Shown here in pieces: positions 18,705-45,557 of a stretch of 64,000 bases of DNA; position 1 is the first letter of the stretch; every line of letters starts with the position of its first letter. The notes under the pieces were generated by a model, which saw only the letters and a list, made by a program, of their open reading frames with translations, was not told the origin of the DNA and ran no database searches. The translations under genes were made by a program, and so were the position numbers. Source of the stretch: Cupriavidus sp. EM10 (GTDB taxonomy: Bacteria > Pseudomonadota > Gammaproteobacteria > Burkholderiales > Burkholderiaceae); contig NZ_CP076060.1 in the NCBI RefSeq assembly GCF_018729255.1, positions 1,116,001 through 1,180,000 of the forward strand, given 5' to 3'.

Positions 18705-18713
18705 GCCGTCCAC

Positions 18714-20316: not shown

Positions 20317-20333
20317 TCCCCATTGAACCCGAT

Positions 20334-20352
20334 GCCCGGCCGCGAGCCGGGC
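20334..20352 (+). terminator. GC-rich hairpin after sheath gene
   Basis: Stem gcccggc-cgcga-gccgggc without a clear T-tract. It may act as an attenuator or stabilise the 3' end of the sheath message. Confidence 0.45.
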
Positions 20353-20374
20353 GACTCTCTCCCAGGAGAAAGAC

Positions 20375-20806: not shown

Positions 20807-20812
20807 TCCGAT

Positions 20813-22022: not shown

Positions 22023-22062
22023 GGGGTCGAAATCGGCTCCGGAATGACAAGTATAGGTCACC

Positions 22063-24009: not shown

Positions 24010-24013
24010 CCAA

Positions 24014-24976: not shown

Positions 24977-24977
24977 G

Positions 24978-27433: not shown

Positions 27434-27434
27434 C

Positions 27435-29246: not shown

Positions 29247-29306
29247 TCAGTAGCAACTCATCCCTTTCTATGGCGCCTCCGGGCGCTATCCTCATTTGGA
29301 GCGCAG

Positions 29307-30950: not shown

Positions 30951-30958
30951 GGCAAAAC

Positions 30959-31471: not shown

Positions 31472-31485
31472 GCGCGTCGTTTGCT

Positions 31486-32529
31486 CTATACGGACGGCAT
31501 TACGTTATCTACCCTCTGGAGGGTATGCTTGTCGATTAATCGTTTCGGGAGGAATGGGCTTTCCACGAAGCGATAGGAAAGATAGGCGGCCATCAGCGTG
31601 AGCGCCAGCGAAAGCATCATGCTCAACCACAAATTCTGCGTCGCTACGTTGATCACAATCTGCTGAATGGGGAAGGCATAGATATAGATGCCATATGAGA
31701 TGTCGAAGCGACCACGTATCAGCTTTTCACTGTATGCCGTGCCGATCATTATCGTCAATAGCGTCAGCGCTAGCGGGCCGACGACATTGATCTCTGGCCG
31801 ACCCCGAGTGATCAGGATGCCGACCGCCGCTGCTGCCACCAGGATTGCGCGATGCGGCTCCCATGCGGGCCGCGTCATGGACAATAGAGCGCCGCCATTG
31901 AAACAGATCCCGAACATCAGCAGATAACTCAGCGGCACGTTATAGAAGCTGTAGTTGTAGCCGGTTGCGACCTGCGCCACAGTTCCCACTACGCTGAGTA
32001 GAAACAGCCCGAGAGGCACCCGGAAATTCTTTGAGAACGAGAGTGCGGCCCCAATGATGAGATAGCACATAAACTCGATCGGCAGCGTCCACAGGCTGCC
32101 ATTGATAGCATGCGGGAAGATCCAGCCACCGAATGCGCCAGGGATGTCCTTTCCCAAAAAGACAGCGGTGGACAAGAAGGTCAGGAATGTGTCGTATGAC
32201 GCAATATACTCAATGGCAGGTTCGGTTACGAAGATCGGCGCGATAAGATAGTTCGTGATGAAGGTGCAGACGACCAGCCCCGGCAGCAGCCGGCGCAGAC
32301 GGCGTTTGATGAAGTCCATGAAGTTTCCCGACCGGATGAAGCTCCCGGGCATGAAATAGCCGGAAATCGAAAAGAATATCGCCACCGCGAGGAAGCCCAG
32401 CGTATCCCACTCCGGGATCTCCGGCTCGCGGTATCCCGTCAGAGCGAACTGATGGCTGTAGAGGACCATTAGAGCGGCAATGTGGCGGATGATGTCGAAG
32501 CAGTTTCCACGGTTGTCGTCGGATGCCAT
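31486..32529 (-). CDS. Acyltransferase 3 family membrane protein (O-antigen acetylase-like)
   Basis: A 347-residue protein with about ten membrane helices and the acyltransferase-3 start FDIIRHIAALMVLYSHQFAL (R and H catalytic). These enzymes move acetyl groups to O-antigen or other surface glycans and often change phage receptors in lysogens. It is read against the late operon and lies downstream of the SGNH-like lipoprotein, with which it may work. Lower GC suggests recent acquisition. Confidence 0.8.
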   Translation of the reverse strand: MASDDNRGNCFDIIRHIAALMVLYSHQFALTGYREPEIPEWDTLGFLAVAIFFSISGYFMPGSFIRSGNFMDFIKRRLRRLLPGLVVCTFITNYLIAPIFVTEPAIEYIASYDTFLTFLSTAVFLGKDIPGAFGGWIFPHAINGSLWTLPIEFMCYLIIGAALSFSKNFRVPLGLFLLSVVGTVAQVATGYNYSFYNVPLSYLLMFGICFNGGALLSMTRPAWEPHRAILVAAAAVGILITRGRPEINVVGPLALTLLTIMIGTAYSEKLIRGRFDISYGIYIYAFPIQQIVINVATQNLWLSMMLSLALTLMAAYLSYRFVESPFLPKRLIDKHTLQRVDNVMPSV

Positions 32530-32665
32530 ATTTTTTCTTGTTTGTCGGTAATCCCGGACTATCAGGCCCGAGCTTTGTCAGGGAGTAATTGTATAGGGTT
32601 GGCGGCTCACCGTTCGGAATGGCAACGTCCGAGTCGGGTGGCCGCAGTTTATGGGCTACTTTACG

Positions 32666-33499
32666 TTATGGTGCACCAGCCATCTTTAAGACAATCGCCC
32701 CCAACACCTCAGCCTGATGCTGCGCCTTGATCTGCAGCAACCACTCATCCGGATAAAAACACGCTCCCATGTGAGACTCCCAGTTCGGCAACGTCTTGAT
32801 GTAGTCATATTGCTTGACCAGCGGCACCTTGTACGCCTCGGCGATGCTCTGCATCGTCGCCACGTAGTTTTCCAGCCACGGATGGTTGCCGTCGCAAACC
32901 GGATTCGGCTCTTCGAGAATCGGGATCTTTCCGGCATCGCGCACGACCTTGATCCACTCAATCATGGCGTCCGCGTATGGCGCTAGGGACTGCATGAGGT
33001 TGTCGTTGATTGCATGATTCATAAGTACGATCTGCGCCTTCGACCCCGCGATCCGCTCGGCAAACGGAGGGCCGCCGCCATCGACGCCGCGCATCATGTT
33101 GACCAAGCTGCTGGCCGTCCCGCCGGACGCGCGATTCGTGATTGTGATAGCCGAATTGTTCAACTGCGCCAGCAGTAGCGCCTGCGACTGAATGGTTTCG
33201 GTCTGCTCCGCAACCCTCAACATTGATGTTAGTCCCATCATCGCGTCATCGCCGTAGACCTCGATCAGGATCGGTTGCGGCGCTGGCGTCGAGGTGGGAG
33301 GTTTTGCAATTGGCTTCGGTACCGGTTCTGCAACTGGCTCGGCAGGCTTGACGATCGCCGGCGGGACTACCTGGGGCACTTCTGCTGGCGCTGTCACCTG
33401 ACGAATGGGCGCGGTGGTCTGCAGATCCTGATCACCATCTCCGCCGCACGCTGAAAGCAAACAGGCGACGGCCACTGCAGCAAGTCTTTCGAATTTCAT
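32666..33499 (-). CDS. SGNH-like lipoprotein with altered catalytic residues
   Basis: A 277-residue lipoprotein: signal peptide with lipobox LLSAC, then a Pro-rich linker (PAEPVAEPVPKPIAKPP), then an SGNH/GDSL-like domain. Block I reads YGDDAMMG, with Asp where the Ser nucleophile of GDS should be, and the C-terminal block reads YPDEW, with Trp where His is expected; the block III Asn (NHAINDN) is kept. It may bind acyl-glycan without hydrolysis. A GAGGAG site precedes the start. Confidence 0.65.
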   Translation of the reverse strand: MKFERLAAVAVACLLSACGGDGDQDLQTTAPIRQVTAPAEVPQVVPPAIVKPAEPVAEPVPKPIAKPPTSTPAPQPILIEVYGDDAMMGLTSMLRVAEQTETIQSQALLLAQLNNSAITITNRASGGTASSLVNMMRGVDGGGPPFAERIAGSKAQIVLMNHAINDNLMQSLAPYADAMIEWIKVVRDAGKIPILEEPNPVCDGNHPWLENYVATMQSIAEAYKVPLVKQYDYIKTLPNWESHMGACFYPDEWLLQIKAQHQAEVLGAIVLKMAGAP

Positions 33500-33528
33500 C
33501 CTCGTCTCCTCGTGAACGGTTGCGCGTT

Positions 33529-33556
33529 ATGCACACATGTATGCTAATACGTTAGC
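33529..33556. promoter_or_regulatory. Operator pair upstream of cargo genes
   Basis: gctaatacgttagc (33543-33556) is a near-perfect palindrome of the prophage motif, next to a second copy containing tgcacacatgt. They lie about 40 bases upstream of the lipoprotein start, so the cargo promoter is probably under the same regulator as the early operon. Confidence 0.6.
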
Positions 33557-33585
33557 AAAGTGTTTACAAGGGGGAATTTGATGTG

Positions 33586-33606
33586 CCCGCCGCGAGCGGG
33601 ATTTTT
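33586..33606 (+). terminator. Terminator before tail gene 33627
   Basis: Stem cccgc-cgcga-gcggg followed by atttttctt. It separates the operator region and cargo genes from the rightward tail genes. Confidence 0.65.
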
Positions 33607-33626
33607 CTTGCCTAAGGGAAACGTAG

Positions 33627-34039
33627 ATGGCATCAAATCTGAAGTACTCGGCGGCACTCAAAAACGCCCAGCAAAACGCGATCACGTCCACACTGGGAGC
33701 GAATGCTGTGCTGGAAATCTACAGCGGAAGTCAGCCCGCCAACCCGGACACCGCCATTTCCTCGCAGGTTTTGCTTGCGTCGCTGACGTGTAATGCGACT
33801 TTCGCACCGGCGGCCTCGGGCGGGGTGCTCACCCTCAACGCTATCGCCAACGGGACCGGTACGGCGGGAGCGGGGGCGGCACTGTGGCCACGTGGTATCG
33901 CCTGAAGACCTCAGGCGGAACAGCTCATATCGATGGCACGGTGGGCATCTCGGGCGCCGACCTGAACCTCAACAACACGAACATTGCGACGGGGCAGACC
34001 GTCAGTATCAGTTCCAGCACCTACAGCAACGCCAACTAA
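33627..34039 (+). pseudogene. Phage tail-region structural protein, frameshifted in this sequence
   Basis: The frame from MASNLKYSAALKNAQ reads well to TGTAGAG, then turns to nonsense and stops at 33905. The next frame carries TVATWYRLKTSGGTA and ends NSN-like (STYSNAN) at 34039. One extra G in gcgggggcgg near 33868-33873 restores a single protein of about 137 residues, of a type common near phage fibres. Function unknown. Confidence 0.65.
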
Positions 34040-34048
34040 GGGCGAATC

Positions 34049-35695
34049 GTGGCAACTTTTACCCTCACATCGGGCTCATCAACGGTCCTTCCGTCTGACT
34101 GGTCGGATGCCAATACCATTGAGTGTTGGGGTGGGGGTGCTGGTGGCGCAGCAAACAACAAGACGGCAAACGTAAAAGGCGCGGGCGGTGGCGGTGCGTA
34201 TGCTGCCATCACCAACCTCACGGGGCTGCTACCTGGCGCAACGGTCAACTACCAGATCGGTGCCGGTGGAGCCGGCGATACGAGTACGGTCGCCCCTACC
34301 GCGGGTGGCGACACTTGGTTCAGCACCTCGTCTACCGTTCTTGCCAAAGGCGGCTCGGTGTCCACGGGCACCGGCGGCGGCGCTGGCGGCCAGGCTTCTT
34401 CGAGTATCGGAACTACGAAGTTCAGCGGCGGTATTGGTGGGGGCACTACTACAGGCGACGCCGGAGCTGGCGGTGGAGGCGCTGGCCGCTCCACCGTTGC
34501 TGGGACTGCTGGTGCGAACGTCACCACAGCCGGTGCTCGTGCCGGTACTGCGGGGGGCGCTTCGGCCGGCGCTGGAGGCACCGCAGGCACCTCTGGTGGC
34601 GGCAACGGCGGTGCGGGGACTGCGAACGCAGCTGGCGGCGGCGGTGGAGGTGGTGGCGGTACAAATGCAGCCGGCGCTGATGGGAACGGCGGTGCCGGCG
34701 CTCTCCCGGGAGGTGGCGGTGGCGCCGGTGGTGGATCGCAAGGGCCGGGCGGAACTCAAAAGGGTGGTGCTGGCGGTAGCGGCCAGATCGTCGTCACCTA
34801 TACGTCGGCCTCTGGAATTTCCGGGGCCGCTGCGTCCACGCAGACTGCGAATGCCGGGGTGACGGCTGGTTCGTTAGGCATTTCGGGTGCCGGCGCCGTT
34901 ACTGAGATCAAGGATGTTGCCGCGGCCTCTGGTTCGGTCGCTGTAAGCGGAGCGACAGCGGTCAATGCTGGAAAGAATGTCGGAGCATCGTCGGGGGCAA
35001 CTGCAATCTCCGGGGCTGGCGCTTCTTCAGAGGCGAACGATGTTGGGGCTGCTGCAGCTTCCGCCAGCGTCGCGGGTGCAGGTGCCGTCAACGAGACGAA
35101 GGATGGCGCTGCTGCCAGCGGCGCAGTTGCGGCCTTTGGATCGGGTGCTTCAACGCAATCCGCTCAGACGTCAACGGCTACCGGATCGATCGCAGTATCG
35201 GGCTCTTCGGCTAGCGGTCAACGCCTTGGTGCCGGCTCGACATCTGGGACGACCGCAATCAGTGGAGCGGGCGTCGCTGGCCAGGCGCCTAGTATTGCTA
35301 GCGGAACAGGGGTAATCGGCAACGTATCGCAAGGCAATGCAGCCAGTGCTCAGTTTCTGAACGTCGCGTCGGCGTTAGGCGGCGTGGCGGTCACTGGTAC
35401 GGCCGCCTCGGCCCAGGCAAGGGACGCAGCCGCGTCAACAGCAGTCAGCGCCGCCTCAGGTTCGGCCGCGAGCACCGAGCAGCCAAACTCAGCCAGCGCG
35501 GCAGGGCGCGTCGATGGCAGTGTTGCGCCGGAACCGATCGTCATCGTTATCCCGTCAGAGGCCCGGGCTACCTCAATGCAGCCAGAACAACGCACGATCA
35601 CGCTGCCAAGAGAACTCCGGATCATCGCCATCTCGGCCGAAGATCGAGCAGCGGCGGTTGAACCCGAAACACGCGTCTTGGAGATACCTGCATGA
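34049..35695 (+). CDS. Large Gly/Ala/Ser-repeat tail protein, 548 aa
   Basis: N-terminal 55 residues form a small fold (FTLTSGSSTVLPSDWSDANT). Residues 60-250 are very Gly-rich, like the fibre at 29307-30950. Residues 255-480 consist of about nine imperfect units of 23-26 residues centred on AISGAGA. The C-terminal 60 residues are different (EPIVIVIPSEARA). It is probably a fibrous tail or decoration protein; no close family is recognised. Confidence 0.6.
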   Translation: MATFTLTSGSSTVLPSDWSDANTIECWGGGAGGAANNKTANVKGAGGGGAYAAITNLTGLLPGATVNYQIGAGGAGDTSTVAPTAGGDTWFSTSSTVLAKGGSVSTGTGGGAGGQASSSIGTTKFSGGIGGGTTTGDAGAGGGGAGRSTVAGTAGANVTTAGARAGTAGGASAGAGGTAGTSGGGNGGAGTANAAGGGGGGGGGTNAAGADGNGGAGALPGGGGGAGGGSQGPGGTQKGGAGGSGQIVVTYTSASGISGAAASTQTANAGVTAGSLGISGAGAVTEIKDVAAASGSVAVSGATAVNAGKNVGASSGATAISGAGASSEANDVGAAAASASVAGAGAVNETKDGAAASGAVAAFGSGASTQSAQTSTATGSIAVSGSSASGQRLGAGSTSGTTAISGAGVAGQAPSIASGTGVIGNVSQGNAASAQFLNVASALGGVAVTGTAASAQARDAAASTAVSAASGSAASTEQPNSASAAGRVDGSVAPEPIVIVIPSEARATSMQPEQRTITLPRELRIIAISAEDRAAAVEPETRVLEIPA

Positions 35696-35982
35696 ACACT
35701 ACTATCCCGCCGAAGGACCCCGGTGCGATGCTGGACTATTTGATGGATTGGTCTGCGTGGCTCGCGGCTGGCGAAAGCATTCAAGGAACGCCCGCAGTCA
35801 CGGCCGACACGGGGCTAGATGTCAACCCGGCCGGCCATTCCACCACCGTGGCAGCGGGAAAGGTAACTTTTTGGCTTGGCGGGGGCGTCAATAACAAGGC
35901 CTATACCGTTGCATGCCAGATCACCACATCACAAGGCCGCACTGATCAGCGGTCGTTTCAGCTTGTCGTTTCCGACAGGTAG
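35692..35982 (+). CDS. Fibre/tail adaptor-like protein, 96 aa
   Basis: Overlaps the repeat protein by ATGA. An Ig-like beta fold is suggested by STTVAAGKVTFWLGGG and ACQITTSQGRTDQRSFQLVV (divided here). This type of protein is named phage fibre-tail adaptor in related genomes. It ends the structural operon before a strong terminator. Confidence 0.6.
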   Translation: MNTTIPPKDPGAMLDYLMDWSAWLAAGESIQGTPAVTADTGLDVNPAGHSTTVAAGKVTFWLGGGVNNKAYTVACQITTSQGRTDQRSFQLVVSDR

Positions 35983-36006
35983 CAGGGTCACCAGCTTTTC
36001 CATCCC

Positions 36007-36029
36007 AGCCCGCTTCGGCGGGCTTTTTT
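36007..36029 (+). terminator. Strong terminator after structural genes
   Basis: Stem agcccgc-ttcg-gcgggct followed by six T, with a stable tetraloop. Confidence 0.85.
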
Positions 36030-36048
36030 ATTATCTCCGGGGAAATTA

Positions 36049-36255
36049 ATGATCGAGGCCGACATGGCAAACGAAGCAGTGAAGCTCGCGCCTGCAGCGC
36101 CCGTAACCGTGATGACCTTCATGGGCTACAGCGTCCAGGACTGGGCCAGTTGGCTGACCGCCTTCTATGTGCTGCTGCTGATCGGTAGTTTCATCTGGAA
36201 GACCTTGCGTCCATGGTTCCAAGGTAGTCGGGACAAGGAGGGGCCGGATGCTTAA
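36049..36255 (+). CDS. Holin
   Basis: A 68-residue protein with one clear membrane helix (WLTAFYVLLLIGSFIWKTL) and a charged tail (RDKEGPDA). It directly precedes and overlaps the lysozyme gene, the classical holin place. It should form the inner-membrane lesion that times lysis. A second in-frame ATG at 36064 could give a shorter form, a start duality known in lambda S. Confidence 0.7.
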   Translation: MIEADMANEAVKLAPAAPVTVMTFMGYSVQDWASWLTAFYVLLLIGSFIWKTLRPWFQGSRDKEGPDA

Positions 36256-36754
36256 GCAACGGATTGCTGTGGCCGCACTCACTATGTCGTCGGCCGGATT
36301 TGCTACGTGGCAGGCGTCCGAAGGCTACACCGACCGCGCCGTCATCCCGACGAAGGGAGACGTGCCTACCATCGGGCATGGTTCGACGAGGTACGAGGAC
36401 GGCCGCGCAGTCCGGATGGGCGATACGATCACGCGCGAGCGGGCGTCTTTGCTTGCTAGAAACCTGATGACGGCCGATGAGAAGCGATTCGCGGCCAGCC
36501 TGCCTGGCGTGAAGCTCTACCAAGCGGAGTTCGACGTCTACATGGACTTCGTCGGCCAGTTCGGCATGAGCAACTGGCGCGGCTCGTCGATGCAAAAGCG
36601 GCTTCTGGCCGGGAACTACGTCGGCGCGTGCAACGCCTTGCTGCTCTACAAGTACGCCGCCGGCTACGACTGCTCGACACCGGGGAACAAGCGTTGCTAT
36701 GGCGTGTGGACTCGCCAGCAGGAGCGCAACCGCAAGTGCTTGGAGGCCCAATGA
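36248..36754 (+). CDS. Endolysin, lysozyme-type (GH24), probable SAR form
   Basis: A 168-residue muramidase. Glu25 starts the EGYTDRA motif and PTIGHGST carries the conserved Thr; a Cys-containing C-terminal part follows. The N-terminal 23 residues (VAALTMSSAGFATW) are weakly hydrophobic, like signal-arrest-release sequences that let lysozymes be exported without holin. The gene overlaps holin and the next membrane gene. Confidence 0.8.
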   Translation: MLKQRIAVAALTMSSAGFATWQASEGYTDRAVIPTKGDVPTIGHGSTRYEDGRAVRMGDTITRERASLLARNLMTADEKRFAASLPGVKLYQAEFDVYMDFVGQFGMSNWRGSSMQKRLLAGNYVGACNALLLYKYAAGYDCSTPGNKRCYGVWTRQQERNRKCLEAQ

Positions 36755-36918
36755 GATACGGAAGCCGGAAATTCATCGCCGCTTTGCTTGTCATCGCGTC
36801 CGCCGACGCCATGCTCATGATCGGCACTATCGATGCCGCAGTATGGGGCGCAACCGTGGCAACCGTGGTCGCAGCCTACATCGCTGGCAATGTCACCCAA
36901 AAGGCGGTGACCAAGTGA
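36751..36918 (+). CDS. Second small membrane protein of lysis cassette, 55 aa
   Basis: Start ATGA-overlaps the lysozyme stop. Two short membrane helices (FIAALLVIASADAMLMIG, WGATVATVVAAYIAG) suggest a holin, pinholin or antiholin. Two holin-like genes in a lysis cassette often act as holin and regulator. Confidence 0.6.
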   Translation: MRYGSRKFIAALLVIASADAMLMIGTIDAAVWGATVATVVAAYIAGNVTQKAVTK

Positions 36919-37283
36919 GCGCCGTGATCGCGCGCGCGGTGGGAGTCCTTGTCCTCGCTCTAGCCGTCTTTTCTGCCGGCTGGATGACAAACGGATGGCG
37001 GAAGGACGCCGAAGTCGAACGGATAAATGCAGAGGCAGTCAGGGCAGATCTATCCGACGCAAAGGCCGCGCTGTCAGCCCTGAAGACTGCCGGCGAGACG
37101 ATTCGCGCAAAGGCTGACGAGTTCAGCGTCGCGCAAACGAAGCTCGGCGCCAAACTAGACGCCATCCAGAAGGACATGAAAAATGCGAAGCCTTTGCCTG
37201 CTGATTGCCGCCCTGACGATTTCCGGATGCGCAAGCTGTCCGACGCCGTCGAAGCTGCCAAGCAAGCCGCCGCCGCTCGATAG
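36915..37283 (+). CDS. Rz-like inner-membrane spanin
   Basis: A GTG start at 36915 overlaps the previous TGA. An N-terminal membrane anchor (GVLVLALAVFSAGWMTNGW) is followed by a long coiled coil. This is the i-spanin structure; it joins the o-spanin across the periplasm to fuse membranes at lysis. Its end overlaps the Rz1 gene by 101 bases. Confidence 0.78.
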   Translation: MSAVIARAVGVLVLALAVFSAGWMTNGWRKDAEVERINAEAVRADLSDAKAALSALKTAGETIRAKADEFSVAQTKLGAKLDAIQKDMKNAKPLPADCRPDDFRMRKLSDAVEAAKQAAAAR

Positions 37284-37431
37284 CGCACTTGCCGCGCCGT
37301 GCCAAATCCCTGACGCGCCGGAGGTGGCCGACTATGACGTCTGGCAAAACTGGGCGATGAAGGACGTCCTTGGTGCACTCGGTGAATGCGCTGCCAAGCA
37401 TCGGAAGACGGTGGAGGCGTGGCCCAACTAA
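37183..37431 (+). CDS. Rz1-like outer-membrane lipoprotein spanin
   Basis: A signal peptide with lipobox TISGC is followed by a Pro-rich segment (PTPSKLPSKPPPL), as in o-spanins. It starts inside the Rz gene in the +1 frame, the partly nested Rz/Rz1 arrangement seen in many phages. Confidence 0.78.
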   Translation: MRSLCLLIAALTISGCASCPTPSKLPSKPPPLDSALAAPCQIPDAPEVADYDVWQNWAMKDVLGALGECAAKHRKTVEAWPN

Positions 37432-37494
37432 AGGATCTTTCCGGCATGCCGATATACCTGACTCACTTTACGTGAGCCCAAGTAGGAGATTGAG

Positions 37495-37527
37495 GGGCCG
37501 GCGTCCCGCGCGCTGGCCCGCCTTTTT
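37495..37527 (+). terminator. Terminator between lysis genes and convergent ligase gene
   Basis: Stem gggccggcg / cgctggccc (one G-T pair) with loop tcccgcg and tail gccttttta. It overlaps the stop of the leftward ligase gene and may serve both directions. Confidence 0.65.
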
Positions 37528-38155
37528 ACCGTTTGAACCGCTCTGGTGGCACGGCGCCGGGCCGCTTCACCTTGATCCAGTCCGACGACCGAATGCCGTC
37601 CTGGTAGGTCGAGCCCGCGCGCTTCCCGACGACCCCTTCAAGTTGCAGATCGAGGGCTGACTGGTATAGCCAACGCCCATCGTCCACGCTCGTGACATGC
37701 AGCACGCGGTCGGAGTGCGCCCGCAGCAGCCGGGCCAGCGCCGCCTTCCGTTTGTCTAACGCCGCGGTGCGCAGATCCTTTCCCTTGTCCACCAGCATGT
37801 CGAACACGCAGTAGACGACCAGCTCCGCCCCCTCGTACCAGCGCTTGCGCCGCGCCCGGGTGTGCAAGCGGTTGAAGTCGCTCCGGCCCAGGTCGTCCAG
37901 GACGCAGACTTCGCCGTCGAGGATAGTTCCGGATGGCATATCAGCGAGGGCCGCGGCCACCTCCGGGAACCACCCGGTGGCGTCAATCCCGCCGCGGCTC
38001 TTCAGTCGGGCCGTGGACCCGGTACTGGCCAAGACGCGGTATCCGTCGAACTTGATTTCGTAGAGCCAGCCGGCCTCGCGCGGTATGGCCTTTCTCTCGA
38101 CCAGGAGCATGGGCGAAAGCTGATCCAGCGTCGGCGCGGGCGTGCCGCGCGGCAT
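37526..38155 (-). CDS. ATP-dependent DNA ligase, adenylation domain only
   Basis: A 209-residue protein resembling the LigD ligase domain. Motif I is KFDGYR within YEIKFDGYRVLAS (Lys is AMP-linked), then DGEVCVLDD, VYCVFDML, EGVVGKR and WIKVK. The OB-fold domain that follows in most ATP ligases is missing, so it is a minimal core or needs a partner. It could seal nicks in replicated phage DNA or support phage-encoded repair. Confidence 0.78.
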   Translation of the reverse strand: MPRGTPAPTLDQLSPMLLVERKAIPREAGWLYEIKFDGYRVLASTGSTARLKSRGGIDATGWFPEVAAALADMPSGTILDGEVCVLDDLGRSDFNRLHTRARRKRWYEGAELVVYCVFDMLVDKGKDLRTAALDKRKAALARLLRAHSDRVLHVTSVDDGRWLYQSALDLQLEGVVGKRAGSTYQDGIRSSDWIKVKRPGAVPPERFKR

Positions 38156-38160
38156 GGCGT

Positions 38161-38379
38161 CTAGCCCTTGATATTGCGCGGATCATGGCCGAACGAGTTT
38201 CGCTCGCGGATCTGACCATCGCGTCCGTGGATCAGTAACTCGACCTTGTCCGCCTGGGCGCGCTCAGTACCGGCCTCAATCGCTTCCTCCTGCGTTGCGA
38301 ACATGGTCCGCTTGCCTCCGCCAGCTGCTTCGACTGCCCAGCCTTCGCCGGCCGGTACGACGTGGATGTCTGCTGCCAT
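38161..38379 (-). CDS. DUF2188 family protein, 72 aa
   Basis: Matches the small DUF2188 pattern: IHVVPAGEGWAVE, then GGGKRTMFATQEEAIEAG, then LLIHGRDGQIRERNSFG. These proteins occur widely in bacteria and phages with no known function. An AAGGAG site precedes the start. It directly follows the region upstream of the ligase and may be co-transcribed with it. Confidence 0.7.
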   Translation of the reverse strand: MAADIHVVPAGEGWAVEAAGGGKRTMFATQEEAIEAGTERAQADKVELLIHGRDGQIRERNSFGHDPRNIKG

Positions 38380-38506
38380 GATCGTCTCCTTTTGGTGGGT
38401 GCCCTAGTTTGGCGCTCCCCACGCCGCCAGGAATATCCGGCGCGCTCCTACATCCCTCTCACTGCGGCAACGTCGCGCGTATCTTTCCAAGCACCCGCAG
38501 TGCGTT

Positions 38507-38911
38507 TCATAAGTCTCCAGATGCGTGTTTTTCACGGGGCGGCTCGGCAAACGCAGCCGCCCAGACCACCTCTGCCACCCCGCGAAATCCGAAGTCACGC
38601 CCAGCCGTCTGAACTGCCTCAGTCTTCCAGACGCGCTCGAAGGCTTCCGGATCAAAGTCTGCGCCGGTCAATATCCTGGACTGGTGCGGCGTCTCCGCGA
38701 GTAGCACCTCCAGTTCTCGTCTAGCCTCCTCGACCGCGTCTCCGGCCGGTTCCCCGCGTCCGTTTTCCCAGCCATGGAAGCCAAGCGCTTCCGTCCCTGC
38801 CGTCAATTGATCCAATGCATCCAAAAGCCGTCGCGCGGCATCCCGCACTGATGGCCTGGCTTGCACGGGTTCCGCGAACTGGCATCCGGCCGCTGATTTC
38901 GTGTTTCCCAT
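38507..38911 (-). CDS. Hypothetical phage protein, 134 aa
   Basis: Mostly helical, with ARRLLDALDQLTAGTEALG and the C-terminal FERVWKTEAVQTAGRDFGF. The start is at 38911; the SOS-like promoter region lies about 105 bases upstream, but points the other way. Not recognised. Confidence 0.5.
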   Translation of the reverse strand: MGNTKSAAGCQFAEPVQARPSVRDAARRLLDALDQLTAGTEALGFHGWENGRGEPAGDAVEEARRELEVLLAETPHQSRILTGADFDPEAFERVWKTEAVQTAGRDFGFRGVAEVVWAAAFAEPPREKHASGDL

Positions 38912-39014
38912 CCCATCCTCTTGTATCTAATGTATGCCGCCCAATGGGTGTCAAGAAGCACATTGAAAAACCCAATTGGCAGGTTGTGGCAACTGCACTC
39001 ACACTGGCTATATA

Positions 39015-39030
39015 CTGTATAAACATACAG
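39015..39030 (+). promoter_or_regulatory. LexA (SOS) box
   Basis: ctgtataaacatacag matches CTGT-N8-ACAG exactly. It overlaps a TATACT-like -10 element in the gap between two divergent genes. It would repress the rightward gene at 39049 until DNA damage. Confidence 0.75.
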
Positions 39031-39048
39031 TAGTTGTAAAGGGGTACG

Positions 39049-39393
39049 GTGGGACTTGCGCGGGTCCCCCGTCGGTCAGGCAGGATGGTCAAACCAAAAA
39101 GTGAGGGGTACGTGAACGCAATGAACGAGAGAAGCACGCCGCCGGTGCCGGCCGGCCTGGAGGGGGCAAGGAAGATCGCGGAGGGTGTCGCTGGCATCTT
39201 CAGCGCCTTGCAGGCGCTGGGGGTCGATGACCAGGAGGTCGAGCGGCTTTGCCAGGTGGGAGCTGCGCTAACCCAGAACCTAAGCAACGAGCTCGAGGTA
39301 GAGCAGGCGGAGAGGGCGTCGCGGCCTCAGTTGCGGGCCGTGCCGGTGATCGACTTCTTCAATGCCGAAGACTCGACGCGAGACGAGCATTAG
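39049..39393 (+). CDS. SOS-controlled hypothetical protein
   Basis: A lone rightward gene in an otherwise leftward arm. GTG start at 39049 with an AAGGGG site; an internal ATG at 39121 after GAGGGG is an alternative start of 90 residues. The core is EGARKIAEGVAGIFSALQAL followed by an acidic helix. Not recognised. Its LexA-type promoter is like that of the phage 186 tum antirepressor, so an induction role is plausible. Confidence 0.55.
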   Translation: MGLARVPRRSGRMVKPKSEGYVNAMNERSTPPVPAGLEGARKIAEGVAGIFSALQALGVDDQEVERLCQVGAALTQNLSNELEVEQAERASRPQLRAVPVIDFFNAEDSTRDEH

Positions 39394-39499
39394 ACGGAAG
39401 CCTGGGCCCGCGCAATCGCCACAAGGCGCGGGTTCGTACCTGATTCTGCGATGCCCCACGCACGGCGCTAGGTCTCGATGATGCGCTCTGCTGCTTCGA

Positions 39500-40036
39500 T
39501 CATGCTGCGTCGAGACTCCGTTCGATGTCTCGGTACGTATCCAGGAACATCATTTCTGCCGCGGCGGGAGCCAGGGGAAAGATGTGAGCGGCGTCTGGTT
39601 CGATACCTTCGAGGGACGTCCACAGCCCGCCGATTTTGTTCATCAAATCGCGTTGCTCAGTGCGCAGCGCCACACGATCTGCATGCTTAACGGCAGGGTC
39701 TAGCGTCGCAGGCAGACCGAAACCGGCCAGAATCGCCGCCTCGCATCGTTTCTCCAAAGCCTTGTATTCAGGGATTAACCGCTTTAACGGACTGACCATG
39801 TCGCCGACCACGGTCTCGACGGCGTCATGAAATAGCGCCTGCTTGCGTAGATGCTTCGGGACCAGGCGCGAGACGACGACGCTATGCTGAGCGACGCTGT
39901 AGAACTGGCGGCAATGTCCGGTGAATCGACAGATTTTTGAAAGGGCGTGAGCGACCTCTTCGACGGTCAGTGTGCACGGATTCGTGAAGTCGAAGTACCG
40001 ACCAGTGGATAGGAGGATGGTGGGCGTGCCTTCCAT
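39500..40036 (-). CDS. HD-domain phosphohydrolase (YfbR-like nucleotidase)
   Basis: A 178-residue HD protein: RFTGHCRQFYSVAQHSVVVS, then QALFHDAVETVVGDM and KHADRVALRTEQRDL. The H, HD and later D are the metal ligands of YfbR-type 5'-nucleotidases that cut dNMPs. In phages such enzymes adjust nucleotide pools or act against nucleotide-based defence. A GGAGA site precedes the start. Confidence 0.78.
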   Translation of the reverse strand: MEGTPTILLSTGRYFDFTNPCTLTVEEVAHALSKICRFTGHCRQFYSVAQHSVVVSRLVPKHLRKQALFHDAVETVVGDMVSPLKRLIPEYKALEKRCEAAILAGFGLPATLDPAVKHADRVALRTEQRDLMNKIGGLWTSLEGIEPDAAHIFPLAPAAAEMMFLDTYRDIERSLDAA

Positions 40037-40113
40037 GGCTTTCTCCTCAATTATTGGTTTTGAATAATTTGGACTAAAGGCGCGGGGAAGCGCTCCCCCG
40101 TTGCCTGGCTCGT

Positions 40114-40716
40114 TCAGCCATGATCCGCCTCCGAGCTATTCACCGCAGAATCTGCGGAGATTATGGCCGTATTCGCCGCACGGGCGGCTTGAACGCTCGG
40201 CCCCGTTTGCCTATCGTGAAGGTCCGCACCTTCAGAAAGGAGGCGGTCATGTGGATCTGCATCCGTTGCCGCGCCGAAATTGCTTTGGATGCCGTCGAGC
40301 CTGGCATTGACGACTTCGGTATCTATTTCCTCTGTCCGCACTGCGGCCGGCGCAACAAGCTGATCAACGTCAGCGCGCGGGACAGGTACGGTCGCCGGCA
40401 CGGTGGTTTGCTTCTCCAGCAGACTGGGGATTGACACCTTGTTGCCGACCATCGCCCGGATCTGAAATGCGATCTCTTCTGCAGCTTCCTTTGCTTCCTC
40501 CCGCCAGCAGCATTCGCAGATCGTGAATTCGGCCTTCACGGCCGCATCTTCGAGAGCCTGCTTGCGCGAGGCTTGCCATGCGAGCTCAAGCTGTTCAATC
40601 AGCCAAATAACGCAAGGGGCCGACACATCGGCGGCCACCAATTCGCCACCGACTGCCACCCGCTCAGCCATTCTCGCCTTGAGCTTAGCCAAGCTCTTCT
40701 CAAATTCCTCGTTCAT
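40114..40716 (-). CDS. Hypothetical phage protein, 200 aa, antisense overlap at its end
   Basis: A GGAGAGAGGG site precedes the ATG at 40716. Residues 1-90 are a charged helical region with ICECCWREEAKEAAEEIAF. The last third has low similarity to anything and overlaps the zinc-ribbon gene 40249-40434 on the other strand. Either the C-terminal part is true, or the frame is extended by chance. Function unknown. Confidence 0.5.
   Translation of the reverse strand: MNEEFEKSLAKLKARMAERVAVGGELVAADVSAPCVIWLIEQLELAWQASRKQALEDAAVKAEFTICECCWREEAKEAAEEIAFQIRAMVGNKVSIPSLLEKQTTVPATVPVPRADVDQLVAPAAVRTEEIDTEVVNARLDGIQSNFGAATDADPHDRLLSEGADLHDRQTGPSVQAARAANTAIISADSAVNSSEADHG
40249..40434 (+). CDS. Zinc-ribbon protein, 61 aa
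   Basis: ATG at 40249 with a very strong AAAGGAGG site. Two CxxC pairs (ICIRCRAE and LCPHCGRR) make a zinc ribbon, followed by a basic tail (ARDRYGRRHGG). It is antisense to the C-terminal part of 40114-40716. Probably a small nucleic-acid-binding or regulatory protein. Confidence 0.6.
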   Translation: MWICIRCRAEIALDAVEPGIDDFGIYFLCPHCGRRNKLINVSARDRYGRRHGGLLLQQTGD

Positions 40717-40725
40717 CCCTCTCTC

Positions 40726-41145
40726 CTAATCGAATAGGTCAGCGACTGCTTTGCGGTCATGGCGTGTCTTGGCCGCGTTCTTCCGGTGGTGCTCGGCGTC
40801 GTAAGCCAGGTGGCAACGCTGGCACCAGGCGCGCAGGTTGTCCGGCTCGCAGTTCTCTGGCGTATGGTCGAGGTGGGCGATAGTCAGCACGATCTTCACG
40901 CCATTTCCGTTGCACTCGTACTCCGACATGCGCCGCTGGCCCAGGTATTCGCCTGTCTCAGAATCGAACACATCGGCCTCGTGAGTCATGTAGGTGCCGG
41001 CATCTCTGCCAAGCCCACGCACGATGATGTCGCCGTTCTGGGCCTTGCATTTCTCGCACTTGTCTTCGGCGCGTTTCAGAATCTCAGCGCGGATCTGCTT
41101 CCAGTTGGCAGGATATCGGCCGCGATTCTCAGGCTTGATCGGCAT
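40726..41145 (-). CDS. HNH endonuclease
   Basis: A 139-residue protein. The pattern CEKCKAQN, then TIAHLDHTPENCEPDNLRAW, then CQRCHLAYD gives the HNH metal site plus a four-Cys zinc site. HNH nucleases of this form take part in phage DNA packaging or homing. A GGAGAGAGGG site precedes the start. Confidence 0.78.
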   Translation of the reverse strand: MPIKPENRGRYPANWKQIRAEILKRAEDKCEKCKAQNGDIIVRGLGRDAGTYMTHEADVFDSETGEYLGQRRMSEYECNGNGVKIVLTIAHLDHTPENCEPDNLRAWCQRCHLAYDAEHHRKNAAKTRHDRKAVADLFD

Positions 41146-41464
41146 CCCTCTCTCCTGTGGCGGTGCGGGCAAAGATAGATGCCACTGAGGCATTCCTTGC
41201 CTGCTGACTGGTCGTCACCGTTTCGGCCAAATCTCGGAAATCCACTTTTGCACTGGATCGTTGCAACGTGTATCCATGTTGTGCCATGAACCACAGAAAC
41301 ACGTCAATAACGTAGCACTGGCCCTGCACCCAATCGATATGCCCGGCGATTGAGTGGCTATCGACGCTGACCGTATCGTGCATCGCCTTGAACAGATCCT
41401 TCTGGTTGTGGAAATCGCGCAAGTCCCGAGGCAGGTACGCTGCTGACTCCAGCCATTGCTTCAT
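41129..41464 (-). CDS. Hypothetical phage protein, 111 aa
   Basis: Start chosen at 41464; an ATG nine bases earlier (41473) overlaps the previous gene's end. It has aromatic and His-rich helices (YVIDVFLWFMAQHGYTLQR) and a long charged end. It overlaps the HNH gene by 17 bases. Not recognised. Confidence 0.5.
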   Translation of the reverse strand: MKQWLESAAYLPRDLRDFHNQKDLFKAMHDTVSVDSHSIAGHIDWVQGQCYVIDVFLWFMAQHGYTLQRSSAKVDFRDLAETVTTSQQARNASVASIFARTATGERDADQA

Positions 41465-41465
41465 G

Positions 41466-41675
41466 TCACGCATTCCCCTCTCCCTTCTTCCTTCCGATCT
41501 CGGCGGCGGCGATCAGGTCTGCCGCATCTTGTGTGCGTTGCGATGCTTGTTCTGCCCATGAATCTCGGTCGTCTTCGAGGGCCTGAATGTATGCTGCTAG
41601 CTCTGCATATCCACCGACCTTAATGACGACATCCCAGCGCCCCATCCAATCGTCCAAATCCAGTTTCTCGTTCAT
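41466..41675 (-). CDS. Hypothetical phage protein, 69 aa
   Basis: Start at 41675 with a GGAGAAGAGA site. A Trp/Asp-rich start (LDLDDWMGRWDVVIKVGGY) and two helices end in KKGEGNA. Not recognised. Confidence 0.5.
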   Translation of the reverse strand: MNEKLDLDDWMGRWDVVIKVGGYAELAAYIQALEDDRDSWAEQASQRTQDAADLIAAAEIGRKKGEGNA

Positions 41676-41700
41676 TCTCTTCTCCGCGCCGCGAGGGCGG

Positions 41701-43407
41701 TTAGTCCCGCGCCTGATCGACCATGGCGGCGTCGACAATCTCCAGATAGCTGCGAATCCCTCTTTCAGAATTCCCTTCCTGGCGCATTAGCCGCAAATGA
41801 GTGCGCCAACGCGCCGCATCCCTCGCATCCGCCCCCGCCTCGCCAACCGTTAAAGAATCCTTAACAGTTGCGTCCGCCTGCGCAGCGGGTGCCGGTTCGT
41901 CGCCATACCCGCATTCCGGGCAACGCTCGAACTCCATGGCATTGCCGTCCGACTCCCGGCCGCTATGCCCTACGGCATGTTGGCCCGTGTCGTTGCAGGT
42001 GTCGCACTGCGGCGCTGGTGCGGCGGGTGCCGGGGCACTAATACGTGATGGCGCATTGCATTCCTGCTCAACTTGCGCCCATGTCTTATGGACACTCACG
42101 GTCGTCGCTGGTGCGGCGGGCGCGGCGAGTAGGGCGCGCTCTGCCTGCGTCTTCATGCGGTCCAGCGCGCCTTGCTCATGCTTCCAGTAGTCGGCGCTGT
42201 CCTTGTCGCCAGAATCGATGCGCTCCAGTTCCGATGCGCGGCATGTGCCTTTCAGCGCGGCATGATGCGAAATAACGTCTTGCAAGCACTCGCGCGCATC
42301 GTCCGTCAGACCTTGCCCCGTCGCTGCGTTGCTGGCATCCGCAGATTGGGCGGATAGAACGTATTCCAGCATTGCACGTGCTTGTCCTGCATGTAGCAGG
42401 TTCGTTCCGGTCGGCCACGATGCATTCGGTGCGGATGCCTTGTCACGGTCAAACGAGACGTAGCAATCCGGGTAGAAGTCTTGCGGCAGCTTCCACCCAA
42501 GGAAGCGGGACACCATTTCGTCGGTGACGGTCAGCCCCGTCGCTGCGTTGCTATTAGCCGCCCCAGCAAACAATTCCTCGACGTCGCTGAAAAGCACCCA
42601 TTCGCCATCAGGGCTTTCATCCATATGAGGAAAAGATTTGTTGAAGCGCATAAGATTTAACGGCGTTTCGTTTCTGGTGAGTGCATGCCGATACACGGGG
42701 AACCCATCGGACCAAAACTCTGGATTGATGGCCTTGTAATGCGGCGTGACCAACGTCACACCGCCATCCGGGCGGGCGAGATATTCCGATAGCCATGCGA
42801 TGGGCTCTCCGGCCCCCTCTTTGCAACCTTGGCACTCGCTATCCGCGCACTCGCCCTTGTGCTTCGCCACTTCGATTTCCTCGTTGCGGCTGGCGTAGCC
42901 GTTGTGGAAGGCTTCGCGGCGCAGTTGGTCATATTGGTCCTGCGTGTACATGTGCTGGCCCGTCACGCGGTCGTGCCATAGCCGGTGGTCTTGGAAGAAT
43001 CGCTCGGGCGCAGCGTTGCTGGCATCCAAGCTATCCACCAGCTTTTCATAGGCGTCGCGGTAGGTGATCGCATAGCGCGTGACCAGAGTCAGCACCGTGT
43101 TGCCGCCAGCCGCGTGCAATTCCAACTCACTGAGCGGCGGCATAGGTGCGTTGCTGGCATCTGCAGATTGGGCGGCGAGGGCGTCAGCGATAGCGGCTTC
43201 GCGGCTGGCGTCGTTGGTAACATACTGGCCGGCGCGGTCCAGGAAATCAGCGATCACGGCATGGGCGAATTGGACCACAGCATCGTGTCCCGCATGGCGC
43301 TCATGCACGAAGATGTTCCAGCCGTCCACCGTATGGATATTGTGTCTACGGGCCAATTCGACGATTGCTTGGTCCGTCAGCCCCGCCTGGCGGGCGTTGT
43401 CTGTCAT
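41701..43407 (-). CDS. Large modular phage protein with repeated AQSADASNA linkers
   Basis: A 568-residue protein made of short modules joined by repeats of AAQSADASNA, SLDASNAAPE, SAQSADASNAATG and NSNAATG. One module carries a Cys cluster (CADSECQGCKEG) and another a four-Cys zinc site (CDTCND, CPECGYGDE); the last (DARDAARWRTHLRLMRQEG) is common at the C-terminus of Burkholderiales phage proteins. The role is unknown. It ATGA-overlaps the next gene. Confidence 0.6.
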   Translation of the reverse strand: MTDNARQAGLTDQAIVELARRHNIHTVDGWNIFVHERHAGHDAVVQFAHAVIADFLDRAGQYVTNDASREAAIADALAAQSADASNAPMPPLSELELHAAGGNTVLTLVTRYAITYRDAYEKLVDSLDASNAAPERFFQDHRLWHDRVTGQHMYTQDQYDQLRREAFHNGYASRNEEIEVAKHKGECADSECQGCKEGAGEPIAWLSEYLARPDGGVTLVTPHYKAINPEFWSDGFPVYRHALTRNETPLNLMRFNKSFPHMDESPDGEWVLFSDVEELFAGAANSNAATGLTVTDEMVSRFLGWKLPQDFYPDCYVSFDRDKASAPNASWPTGTNLLHAGQARAMLEYVLSAQSADASNAATGQGLTDDARECLQDVISHHAALKGTCRASELERIDSGDKDSADYWKHEQGALDRMKTQAERALLAAPAAPATTVSVHKTWAQVEQECNAPSRISAPAPAAPAPQCDTCNDTGQHAVGHSGRESDGNAMEFERCPECGYGDEPAPAAQADATVKDSLTVGEAGADARDAARWRTHLRLMRQEGNSERGIRSYLEIVDAAMVDQARD

Positions 43408-44066
43408 GCTTGCTCCTTCGGGAAGGTCTGCGTCTTGATAGTGACGGCTATTTCGTCGGCGATCTCTTGCTTGATCTCGTCGTCAATGTCATCCAGCACG
43501 CCGCGTCGATCTTCGAGGTTTGCGATGATCGTCAGCGCCACTCGCATTGCCGCTTCGTCGCTAACCCCCGCAGCGCCCAACGCTTCCGGGGCGGGGCGGG
43601 CGACATAGCCGCTGTGCTTGTCGGCGTCGTAGTCCAGGATGTCAGGGCGGTCCGCCAGTTCTCCAAGCAGATAGCGCAGGCGGTCAGCTTCGTAACGAAC
43701 ACGATCCGGGAATTCGGAACGCTCAATAGTGATCCCATCCGCCAAATCTAGGACGTCGTTGCCGTTGTCGCGGTACAGAATGGCCGTGTAGTTGTGTTTG
43801 CCGTTGCTTTCAGGCATCGGGCCATAGAACACGCGCAGCTTCGACTCTGGCCCGAAGGGCGCAGAGCGCTTTCCACAGCGCGGGCAATTCGCGCCGACAT
43901 TAACGCCGAGGTGCCCACACTCATTGCAATCTGTCGTGTCCGGCATTGCGGTCTGCAACGCCTCCCGCGCATCAATATCGCGTTGGTCCTGCGGCCAGGC
44001 ATTCGCCATACCGTCGCCGATTGCGGCAGGCGAATCCGCGTCGTTTTGGCGATTTACGTCTTTCAT
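43404..44066 (-). CDS. Zinc-ribbon phage protein, 220 aa
   Basis: Start at 44066. CNECGHLGV and CPRCGKRS at about 49-68 form a zinc ribbon; then FYGPMPESNGKHNYTAILYR and an acidic C-terminal helix. It may be a restriction-alleviation-like (Lar-like) protein, judging by the small ribbon, but similarity is not strong enough to name it. Confidence 0.55.
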   Translation of the reverse strand: MKDVNRQNDADSPAAIGDGMANAWPQDQRDIDAREALQTAMPDTTDCNECGHLGVNVGANCPRCGKRSAPFGPESKLRVFYGPMPESNGKHNYTAILYRDNGNDVLDLADGITIERSEFPDRVRYEADRLRYLLGELADRPDILDYDADKHSGYVARPAPEALGAAGVSDEAAMRVALTIIANLEDRRGVLDDIDDEIKQEIADEIAVTIKTQTFPKEQA

Positions 44067-44077
44067 TTTTCGTCTCG

Positions 44078-44182
44078 TCAGTTCACAGGGCGGGCGAGGG
44101 ACACCCGGGCGGATCTGGTCCACGGACAGCCGGCTACCGTGTGGTCGCCGGCACCGCAGTAGCAGCAAACGAACGTCTTCAT
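44078..44182 (-). CDS. CCHC zinc-knuckle mini-protein, 34 aa
   Basis: Reads MKTFVCCYCGAGDHTVAGCP and a basic tail. Cys6-x2-Cys9-x4-His14-x4-Cys19 is the exact CCHC knuckle spacing known from nucleocapsid-type RNA/DNA binders. Its start overlaps the stop of the membrane peptide gene, so they are coupled. Likely a small nucleic-acid-binding protein. Confidence 0.6.
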   Translation of the reverse strand: MKTFVCCYCGAGDHTVAGCPWTRSARVSLARPVN

Positions 44183-44259
44183 CGCATCAGTCCCAGAACG
44201 GGCACGCCGACGACTGCCAGGAACATCACTGCGGCGCAGATCATTACGAAGTCATCCAT
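44179..44259 (-). CDS. Membrane micro-peptide, 26 aa
   Basis: MDDFVMICAAVMFLAVVGVP continues to LGLMR. It is a single membrane helix, with an AGGGAG site seven bases before the ATG at 44259. Coupled to the zinc-knuckle gene by ATGCGATGA. Function unknown. Confidence 0.5.
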   Translation of the reverse strand: MDDFVMICAAVMFLAVVGVPVLGLMR

Positions 44260-44286
44260 GTCCAGACTCCCTGTAGTTGAGGGTGC

Positions 44287-44556
44287 TCAGGCGGCCGTGG
44301 CCGGCTCGATATTGGTGAAGGGGTACTTCGTCACCTCGGGCTTGATGAACTTGCCGAAGTGGGCGCCGATCGATTCGGCGCTCTTGAACGCCTCGAACTC
44401 GGCCGCCGGGAAGTTGGCGTAGTGGTACAGGCTGCCGGCGCCGGCCTTGCTCTTGAAGCGGATGGCCAGGGTGTTGCTGTCGGCGTCGTGGCCAATGCTA
44501 TGGATCTGCGACGACTCGACTTCTTGCATGGTGATTTGCGGCACGGTGTTTTCCAA
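44287..44556 (-). CDS. KTSC-domain phage protein, 89 aa
   Basis: Has the KTSC pattern SSQIHSIGHDADSNTLAIRF, then AGSLYHYANFPAAEFEAF and an S-x-G-x-x-F-x-x-x-I end. KTSC is fused to nucleases and tRNA synthetase-like proteins elsewhere and is thought to bind nucleic acid; alone, as here, it is common in phages. Confidence 0.7.
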   Translation of the reverse strand: MENTVPQITMQEVESSQIHSIGHDADSNTLAIRFKSKAGAGSLYHYANFPAAEFEAFKSAESIGAHFGKFIKPEVTKYPFTNIEPATAA

Positions 44557-44568
44557 GTGATGAGGGGG

Positions 44569-44703
44569 TTAGCGATAGGCGCCGGTCAGGAACGGAAAGG
44601 CCATCGCCAGCGCGGCGAGTACTGCGATGCCGATCACGGTCCAGCGCCGGATCTGCTTGCTGGAGCGGAGGCGGACGAAGATGGGGTCGTGCGGGTCGAT
44701 CAT
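44569..44703 (-). CDS. Small membrane protein, 44 aa
   Basis: MIDPHDPIFVRLRSSKQIRR is followed by a helix VIGIAVLAALAMAFPFL. The start ATGA-overlaps the previous gene. Similar to single-span phage peptides that interact with host membrane proteins; no family assigned. Confidence 0.55.
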   Translation of the reverse strand: MIDPHDPIFVRLRSSKQIRRWTVIGIAVLAALAMAFPFLTGAYR

Positions 44704-44903
44704 TGGGTGGTCCCCAGTTCGATACGCATGCAGATCAGGGCGTACTTCGCGTCGGCGGTCAGCTTCCCGATGGCGGAAGGGTCTTTCAGGTCGATCACGT
44801 CCATGCGTTGCAAGACGTCCTGCAGCAGATCAACCGTGTCGGGTCGCAAGTGCTTCAGGTTCTCGTGGTCTGCCTGTCTGGCGACGGCTTGGGAGGTGTT
44901 CAT
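44700..44903 (-). CDS. Hypothetical phage protein, 67 aa
   Basis: Helical with TVDLLQDVLQRMDVIDLKD and a compact C-terminus. Located between the first gene of the arm and the 44-residue membrane gene, all in one leftward unit. Not recognised. Confidence 0.55.
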   Translation of the reverse strand: MNTSQAVARQADHENLKHLRPDTVDLLQDVLQRMDVIDLKDPSAIGKLTADAKYALICMRIELGTTQ

Positions 44904-44906
44904 GGC

Positions 44907-45170
44907 TCAAGCTCCGAAGCGAACCATGAAGCGATTCGACTGCAGAGATTTGTAGGCTTCGCCGCCGGTGCGCTCGGCAGCTGCAGTCGCCTGGGTCAGA
45001 TTTGCGAAGACGCGGGGCGAACCCCCGCGGCAGAGATGAAGGACGCCATTGCGCAGGGGTTCGATCGATTCCTGTTTGGCCAGCTTGGCTTGCTCGCGCT
45101 TGTAGGCGTCAATCTGGGAATCGATGTTGCCGCGTTTGGCCAGCGGCACGTTCACGATTGCGTTGTCCAT
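44907..45170 (-). CDS. Hypothetical phage protein, 87 aa, first gene of the right accessory arm
   Basis: Start at 45170 with AGGAG. It has a basic helix (SQIDAYKREQAKLAKQES) and ends GGEAYKSLQSNRFMVRFGA. It lies just below two operator copies, so it is the first gene of a repressor-controlled leftward operon. Function unknown. Confidence 0.6.
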   Translation of the reverse strand: MDNAIVNVPLAKRGNIDSQIDAYKREQAKLAKQESIEPLRNGVLHLCRGGSPRVFANLTQATAAAERTGGEAYKSLQSNRFMVRFGA

Positions 45171-45200
45171 CCGAAGCTCCTGCGCGTTTGTTATCAACAT

Positions 45201-45226
45201 GCACACATGTTAGCACACGCGTTAGC
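45201..45226. promoter_or_regulatory. Two operator copies at head of right accessory arm
   Basis: gcacacatgttagc (45201-45214) is the exact reverse complement of the site at 8836-8849, and gcacacgcgttagc (45213-45226) is a second copy sharing two bases. A possible -35/-10 pair (TTGCGC, TAACAT) of the leftward promoter overlaps them. Confidence 0.65.
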
Positions 45227-45347
45227 AAGCGCAAGGAGGGAGATGCGAGATTTTTTTGCGGGGAAGACGAATGGGGCGCGCCTAGAACGGCGCAAAGATG
45301 GGCGTAACTTTTAGCGTAGGTCGCTGCTGGAACCCAATGCTGGCTTG

Positions 45348-45557
45348 CTACACACACTGCAGCATCATTGGCGTGTGTTTTTCGGCCTTGTCTGCCTTGT
45401 CCGACCTGCCCGACGTCCCTTTGCGACGGGAAGTGCCTTCGGCGGCAGCCAGGGCGTCGGCGGACAGGGCCCCGTCGCCGGCTTCGCGGATGTCATCCTC
45501 GCGCGATGCGCTGTCGGGCGAGTTGGTGGACAGGTTGGAAAGGGCTTCAGCGGACAT
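45348..45557 (-). pseudogene. mutS: mutS 5' end, interrupted by prophage
   Basis: The frame from 45557 (AGAGGA site) encodes an acidic N-terminal extension and then KHTPMMLQ, the start of MutS domain I; two phage-derived codons and a stop follow. MutS is the mismatch-recognition ATPase. Only about 67 codons remain here; the rest should lie beyond the left end of the prophage. Without excision the cell should lack MutS. The extension length differs from E. coli, as is usual in this group. Confidence 0.8.
45350..45362. other. Prophage-chromosome junction inside mutS
   Basis: Read on the minus strand, MutS sequence runs to CTGCAG (45357-45362) and is replaced by tgtgtgtagcaagcc of the phage. 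The expected MutS continuation (YL, as in HTPMMQQYL of E. coli) is missing. The last phage bases on the plus strand end in CACACA. The exact attachment core cannot be set without the left junction. Confidence 0.75.

Follow-up and report, generated by a model that had tools for sequence, protein, structure and literature searches.

A prophage in mutS of Cupriavidus sp. EM10 appears to replace the start of the gene and to keep it in frame

A prophage lies in mutS of Cupriavidus sp. EM10, and it appears to have exchanged the start of this mismatch-repair gene for one of its own. The account we favour, and in which we have high confidence as a whole, is that a tyrosine integrase would have inserted a 55-kb contractile-tailed prophage early in host mutS, at a 26-bp site coding for KHTPMMLQ, an event that would have severed the host promoter, the start codon and the first ~60 codons of the gene and stranded them at the right end of the element. 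In return, the mutS body would have gained a phage-borne ribosome-binding site, a GTG start and a 41-codon leader, all situated between mutS and the divergent integrase gene (int); because the phage-borne start is joined to the mutS body, the lysogen would have mutS in one piece. On precise excision, the host's own form of the gene would be restored in frame.

Results

We analysed a stretch of 64,000 nucleotides (the window, G000:C1:1116001-1180000) along with the stretch to its left (L002, G000:C1:1098001-1116000). The features at the two prophage ends are:

Window 1..45383, no strand: prophage portion in the window; the left 10 kb, with the integrase and attL, lies outside it
Window 45348..45557, minus strand: orphan host 5' end of mutS, 69 codons and stop, severed from the mutS body by the prophage
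Window 45358..45383, no strand: attR core, 26 bp; partner attL at L002:8016-8041 (G000:C1:1106016-1106041)
Window 45313..45321, plus strand: putative arm-type repeat AGCGTAGGT at the right end, so read from its position and repetition
L002:8271-9566, divergent from mutS: integrase gene, Phage_integrase and Arm-DNA-bind_3 (PF00589, PF13356)

The orphan opens with an ATG at 45557-45555 (minus strand), which starts a 210-base frame of 69 codons plus stop that closes at 45348. Its translation ends in DKAEKHTPMMLQCV and a stop, that is, in KHTPMMLQ followed by CV and the stop, the final two codons and the stop being phage sequence. An earlier note on this DNA had placed the interruption of mutS after about 67 codons, which is the portion of the 69-codon frame through KHTPMMLQ; it had also taken the frame for the start of MutS running into a stop in phage DNA, and HTPMM for the motif at which the prophage integrated. 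These claims held up: the orphan is homologous to the MutS N-termini of relatives, and the join falls at HTPMMLQ on both sides.

The note had also expected MutS to be lost while the prophage is resident, and here we arrive at a different picture. The mutS body, which lies 10 kb to the left of the window at the opposite end of the prophage, forms a single 917-codon stop-to-stop frame (G000:C1:1103420-1106170, minus strand), and it is within this frame, free of stops, that a profile search of the genome placed its sole MutS_I match (PF01624; C1:1105697-1106032, minus strand). The continuation of MutS past the left prophage end is present and open, and the MutS_I search revealed no second mutS copy in the genome, where the note had allowed for an intact one. 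On the phage side the hybrid gene begins with AGGAG, nine bases and GTG, then TTSVDAVNEIDRKDGKTVPTKVLRDKTTSDQTVTKTAAEK and HTPMMLQYLRLK. This replacement leader, the GTG plus 41 codons, is in frame with the mutS body at HTPMM, so that one frame of 913 aa, read from the GTG, joins the body to a phage start. The product retains the Walker-A motif GPNMGGKST and the F-Y-E motif. In 623 codons compared with MutS of G042, there are 19 differences at first, 9 at second and 145 at third codon positions, a pattern as expected for a protein under purifying selection, albeit one measured over the whole branch and not only after integration.

The attL and attR cores, whose starts are 55,342 bp apart, are identical at 25 of 26 bases, the core being TGCAGCATCAT[C/T]GGCGTGTGTTTTTC. 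The mismatch occupies the third base of a proline codon (CCG left, CCA right) and is silent in mutS. Relatives with a similar host start read CCA (G022, G053, G028) or CCC (G042, G029, G031) at this codon, a faint hint that the left CCG may be phage-derived and that exchange may have occurred in the 11 bases 3' of CCG in mutS. When the host flanks are joined, the predicted empty site is an open in-frame MutS of 932 aa; precise excision is thus predicted to close the host gene in frame and to leave no mutator scar.

This bears on a scenario in which MutS works with the element in place and excision causes a frameshift that yields a mutator. Such a reverse switch has been shown in V. splendidus 12B01, at the same motif and with the same replacement of promoter and start, where a 27-kb element takes 2 bp with it on excision and so breaks mutS (Chu et al. 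2017, PMC5296598). Here, however, the two cores share one mutS frame, and no stop interrupts the predicted empty site. In addition, Chu et al. sequenced three further elements that excise, and these were scarless, mutS being scarred in 12B01 only (PMC5296598). We therefore consider a reverse switch extremely unlikely in the present case, scarred excision of the 12B01 kind having been rejected on the sequence-based prediction of an in-frame empty site. A mutator switch of the mutL type, turned on and off by excision, had been entertained in the earlier note and fares no better, in that a full MutS is predicted to be encoded both with the prophage in place (913 aa) and in its absence (932 aa). 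The Streptococcus pyogenes phage island that inspired this idea likewise is a phage element at a mismatch-repair locus; it lies between mutS and mutL and halts mutL transcription (PMC5296598), whereas mutS here keeps an in-frame start and mutL, intact and open for 699 codons, is 1.75 Mb away. A quantitative change in mutS expression is possible.

What lies between int and mutS? The int ATG and the mutS GTG are 112 bp apart, within the 300 bp used as a criterion for mutS-resident elements. The 8-mer GCGTAGGT has five copies in the ~55.4 kb element, four of which lie between int and mutS (L002:8179-8270); the fifth, at window 45314-45321, belongs to the right end. A random 8-mer would be expected ~1.7 times (55,400 x 2 / 65,536, assuming equal base use), and chance copies would not be expected to fall all at the two element ends. 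Between one and four copies are found in the loci of G019, G024, G203, G074 and G128, and none in G094; in a four-sequence alignment, the gap is conserved more than the leader. The repeats in the gap and at the right end are thus candidate integrase arm sites and, if read in this way, would set the phage-supplied mutS start inside the attachment region. A crude consensus scan for sigma-70-like promoters returned 0 matches in the phage region before mutS, against 0.4 expected by chance, and no match at either prophage end. Given these zero matches, transcription of mutS from the phage region is something we only infer. We presume that this region holds a working promoter, that mutS is expressed in the lysogen, that hybrid MutS is active and that the element continues to excise.

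Our preferred account leaves room for a regulatory switch without loss, in which MutS would be present in both states and its level or timing would differ, with the int-mutS region taking the place of the host promoter. The replacement start and the divergent int start lie close together, and the gap between them holds four GCGTAGGT repeats, an arrangement consistent with such a switch; differing mutS level or timing is discussed by Chu et al. for their non-12B01 elements (PMC5296598). Keeping in mind that it refines the favoured account and does not contradict it, we regard a regulatory switch as a serious, if tentative, possibility.

The leader evolves differently from the body that it precedes. 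Differences at its codon positions 1, 2 and 3 number 13, 16 and 17 versus G019, 12, 13 and 22 versus G024, and 20, 25 and 21 versus G203, with zero indels in 41 codons in all three comparisons. A conserved leader peptide was rejected on these grounds, differences being spread across codon positions and amino acids barely conserved; the reading frame is kept while the amino acids drift. We also rejected derivation of this leader from a host mutS start of the genus, given that its DNA similarity to such starts is not above that of shuffles. A resemblance to host starts was evident in one of seven element leaders tested, that of G016 (48-57 versus a shuffle maximum of 33).

Turning to relatives, the orphan is homologous to the MutS N-terminus in 6 of 56 same-genus genomes (G042, G029, G022, G053, G031 and G028), where local scores run from 107 to 222 and the best of 100 shuffles scores 45-56; G037, which follows in the ranking, is a borderline case (54 versus 48). 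Note that the 56 genomes include G019 and G024, both carriers of such elements, and leave out G045 and G017, whose MutS was missed by the motif pattern; G047, a 54% complete genome, has no MutS_I match. In all six relatives with an orphan-like N-terminus mutS is uninterrupted, in frames of 963-987 codons without stops, so that the intact mutS that the earlier note had suggested seeking in related strains does exist. An integrase match upstream of mutS was seen in 2 of 58 relatives, G019 and G024, with up to ~12 kb considered (shorter in G011 and G046); beyond these and the window's own genome, no mutS-adjacent integrase of such kind was found in the genus in the upstream region examined.

Two further genomes in the genus show unusual arrangements. 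In G016, a related integrase lies 150 kb from mutS (L048, G016:C1:2023559-2024854) beside a leader that ends in HTPMMQHYRGVKH plus stop, and the neighbour of mutS itself (L121) is a different ORF of 562 aa, whose match to an arm-binding domain is weak and falls below the Pfam cut-off; stacked elements are one possible explanation. At the DNA level, the G016 leader is similar to native mutS starts in G059, G050, G015, G034 and G043, which suggests exchange of mutS starts between phage and host. In G011 (L083, G011:C21:1-6500), a second copy of the mutS start is present 4.3 kb upstream, and the start adjoining the mutS body, together with its upstream sequence, is almost the same as the orphan start. 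This looks like a small insertion that would carry a host-type start; no integrase of the mutS-resident kind was found upstream of mutS in G011.

To place the element more widely, we collected 41 bacterial loci with integrase relatives, 11 from a genome-contig search and 30 from a family-genome search (398 genomes, with 36 places in 34 genomes, 30 of which gave loci). The integrase flanks mutS in 20 of the 41 (7/11 and 13/30), or 18 distinct loci given identical leaders in L004/L055 and L007/L047. All 20 are in frame at the join, with 25 to 55 codons upstream of HTPMM and an ATG, GTG or TTG. Downstream, five of the seven genome-contig loci are open to a stop 853-877 codons away, L006 is cut by the contig end, and in L013, a MAG, the mutS frame breaks far downstream, at ~codon 772, with a shifted second piece; in the 13 family-search loci mutS is open to the locus end (422-429 codons). 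The remaining 21 integrase relatives, some of them partial genes, are not beside mutS within the flank examined, and the integrase family at large is accordingly not bound to mutS. Among these 21, the G016 locus L048 still has a leader ending in HTPMM.

The in-frame joins are difficult to reconcile with the idea that the prophage disrupts MutS and makes the lysogen a mutator that reverts when the phage leaves. True, the body has been parted from the mutS start of the host, and the scan gave no promoter match for the replacement region, as such a model would have it. Against this, the body is open and in frame with a new start and ribosome-binding site, every one of the 20 mutS-flanking relatives keeps frame at the join, and the same arrangement was inferred to yield functional MutS in 12B01 (PMC5296598). 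We judge a disrupted MutS very unlikely and retain replacement of the start by the phage as the better explanation.

Integrase relatives were also found on 49 viral contigs, 22 of which have enough upstream sequence to examine. Eleven enter MutS in frame, two of these (L180, L181) only briefly, at the end of the stretch; in four, the leader reaches HTPMM and a stop follows, which is what an unintegrated attP should look like; and seven show neither. Acidovorax phage Aval (OP131589.1, 39.6 kb), whose integrase is 58.7% identical, shares a leader ORF beside int that ends in HTPMM, but its frame stops directly after the motif (HTPMMH, stop), as expected of a free attP. Burkholderia phage KS9 has a related integrase (55.3%), and no HTPMM leader was found at the record ends examined. 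The attP-like leader ending in HTPMM in Aval and the four viral contigs means that phage DNA carries part of host mutS along.

Twenty prophage proteins were compared with PHROGs, and Pfam was also run. The principal matches in the window, all on the plus strand, are:

11345..12652, plus strand: terminase large subunit (phrog_2, 2.4e-57)
12664..14091, plus strand: portal protein (phrog_145, 1.3e-125)
15023..16345, plus strand: major head protein (phrog_283, 1.8e-104)
18784..20316, plus strand: contractile tail sheath (phrog_23, 1.9e-46)
27435..28577, plus strand: baseplate wedge protein (phrog_6, 3.9e-50)
36284..36754, plus strand: phage lysozyme (PF00959, 3.5e-16)

Further PHROGs matches comprise a tail fibre, two exonucleases, a Bet-like annealing protein and a reverse transcriptase. 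Judged by these genes, the element looks like a prophage of the contractile-tailed type, of ~55 kb. It also contains four clustered tRNA genes (Asn, Trp, Tyr, Met; window 9656-10026) and, in its right arm, an ATP-dependent DNA ligase domain (window 37526-38155, minus strand; PF01068, 6.8e-27). Just beyond the right prophage end, upstream of the orphan start, is a HicB-like antitoxin gene (window 45763-46167; PF15919, 3.3e-48).

The reverse transcriptase belongs to a diversity-generating retroelement that spans L002:15936-17779 and window 161-745:

L002:15936-16841: reverse transcriptase (phrog_1423, 2.3e-85)
L002:17047-17140: template repeat
L002:17281-17655: Avd (phrog_3206, PF22296)
L002:17689-17779, window 170-261 and window 652-745: three variable repeats

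The variable repeats carry 13, 11 and 13 mismatches to the template, every one on a template adenine, and the three target genes are tandem near-copies of one another. The presence of both features in one element invites a joint reading, namely that the phage co-opts mismatch repair: arm-site binding by Int and excisionase at induction would shut mutS off and thereby spare A-to-N changes made by the retroelement, which would go into the three variable repeats with help from the Bet-like annealing protein and would not be removed by MutS. The retroelement link has evidence against it. Of 15 genomes that carry elements of this type or close kin of them, one has Avd near mutS; among 37 related phage records, some of them fragments, the count is 0. 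The base rate of Avd in the genus is 7/60. What is more, the cassette recurs at ~80% DNA identity in G029:C14:5610-5978 and G031:C1:45513-45881 with no other matches to the prophage around it in the 40 kb and 80 kb examined, which argues that the retroelement moves separately from the mutS-targeting integrase. We accordingly rejected an association between retroelement and mutS, the pairing in this prophage looks incidental, and the joint reading, repair shut-off and sparing of changes together, strikes us as very improbable.

Discussion

The split of mutS, the att core, the in-frame join, the homology of the orphan to relatives and the open MutS are all directly visible in the DNA. In hundreds of Beta- and Gammaproteobacteria, the HTPMMQQ motif of mutS is occupied by mobile elements, in some cases prophages, from which the gene gains a new start and promoter (Chu et al. 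2017, PMC5296598). The prophage shares with them the HTPMMQQ site, an orphaned host start, an in-frame element start and an int that adjoins mutS, and they include prophages such as that of Burkholderia multivorans CF2; it differs in carrying a diversity-generating retroelement. By its sequence-level features it is a new member of the mutS-resident elements as Chu et al. describe them (PMC5296598), the main text of which has 0 occurrences of Cupriavidus. In the available text of the C. metallidurans genome paper mutS is mentioned only as a listed gene, and that of an Achromobacter paper on mutS deletion mentions no prophage in mutS.

Gene-restoring integration also has a precedent at another locus. 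SXT-type elements in prfC replace the host 5' end with a new promoter and N-terminus. The prophage here presumably resembles them in replacing a host 5' end, with a different target gene and element type.

The case is ordinary in kind, and a clear example, as orphan, hybrid gene and empty-site relatives are all available. What appears to be a mismatch-repair knock-out becomes a probable promoter-and-start swap, and for annotators, half-genes at prophage ends call for a look at the other end. The integrase-mutS architecture recurs in 18 distinct bacterial loci. Should lysogen and cured cells differ in mutS expression, phages would set the mutation rates of their hosts while leaving the gene unbroken.
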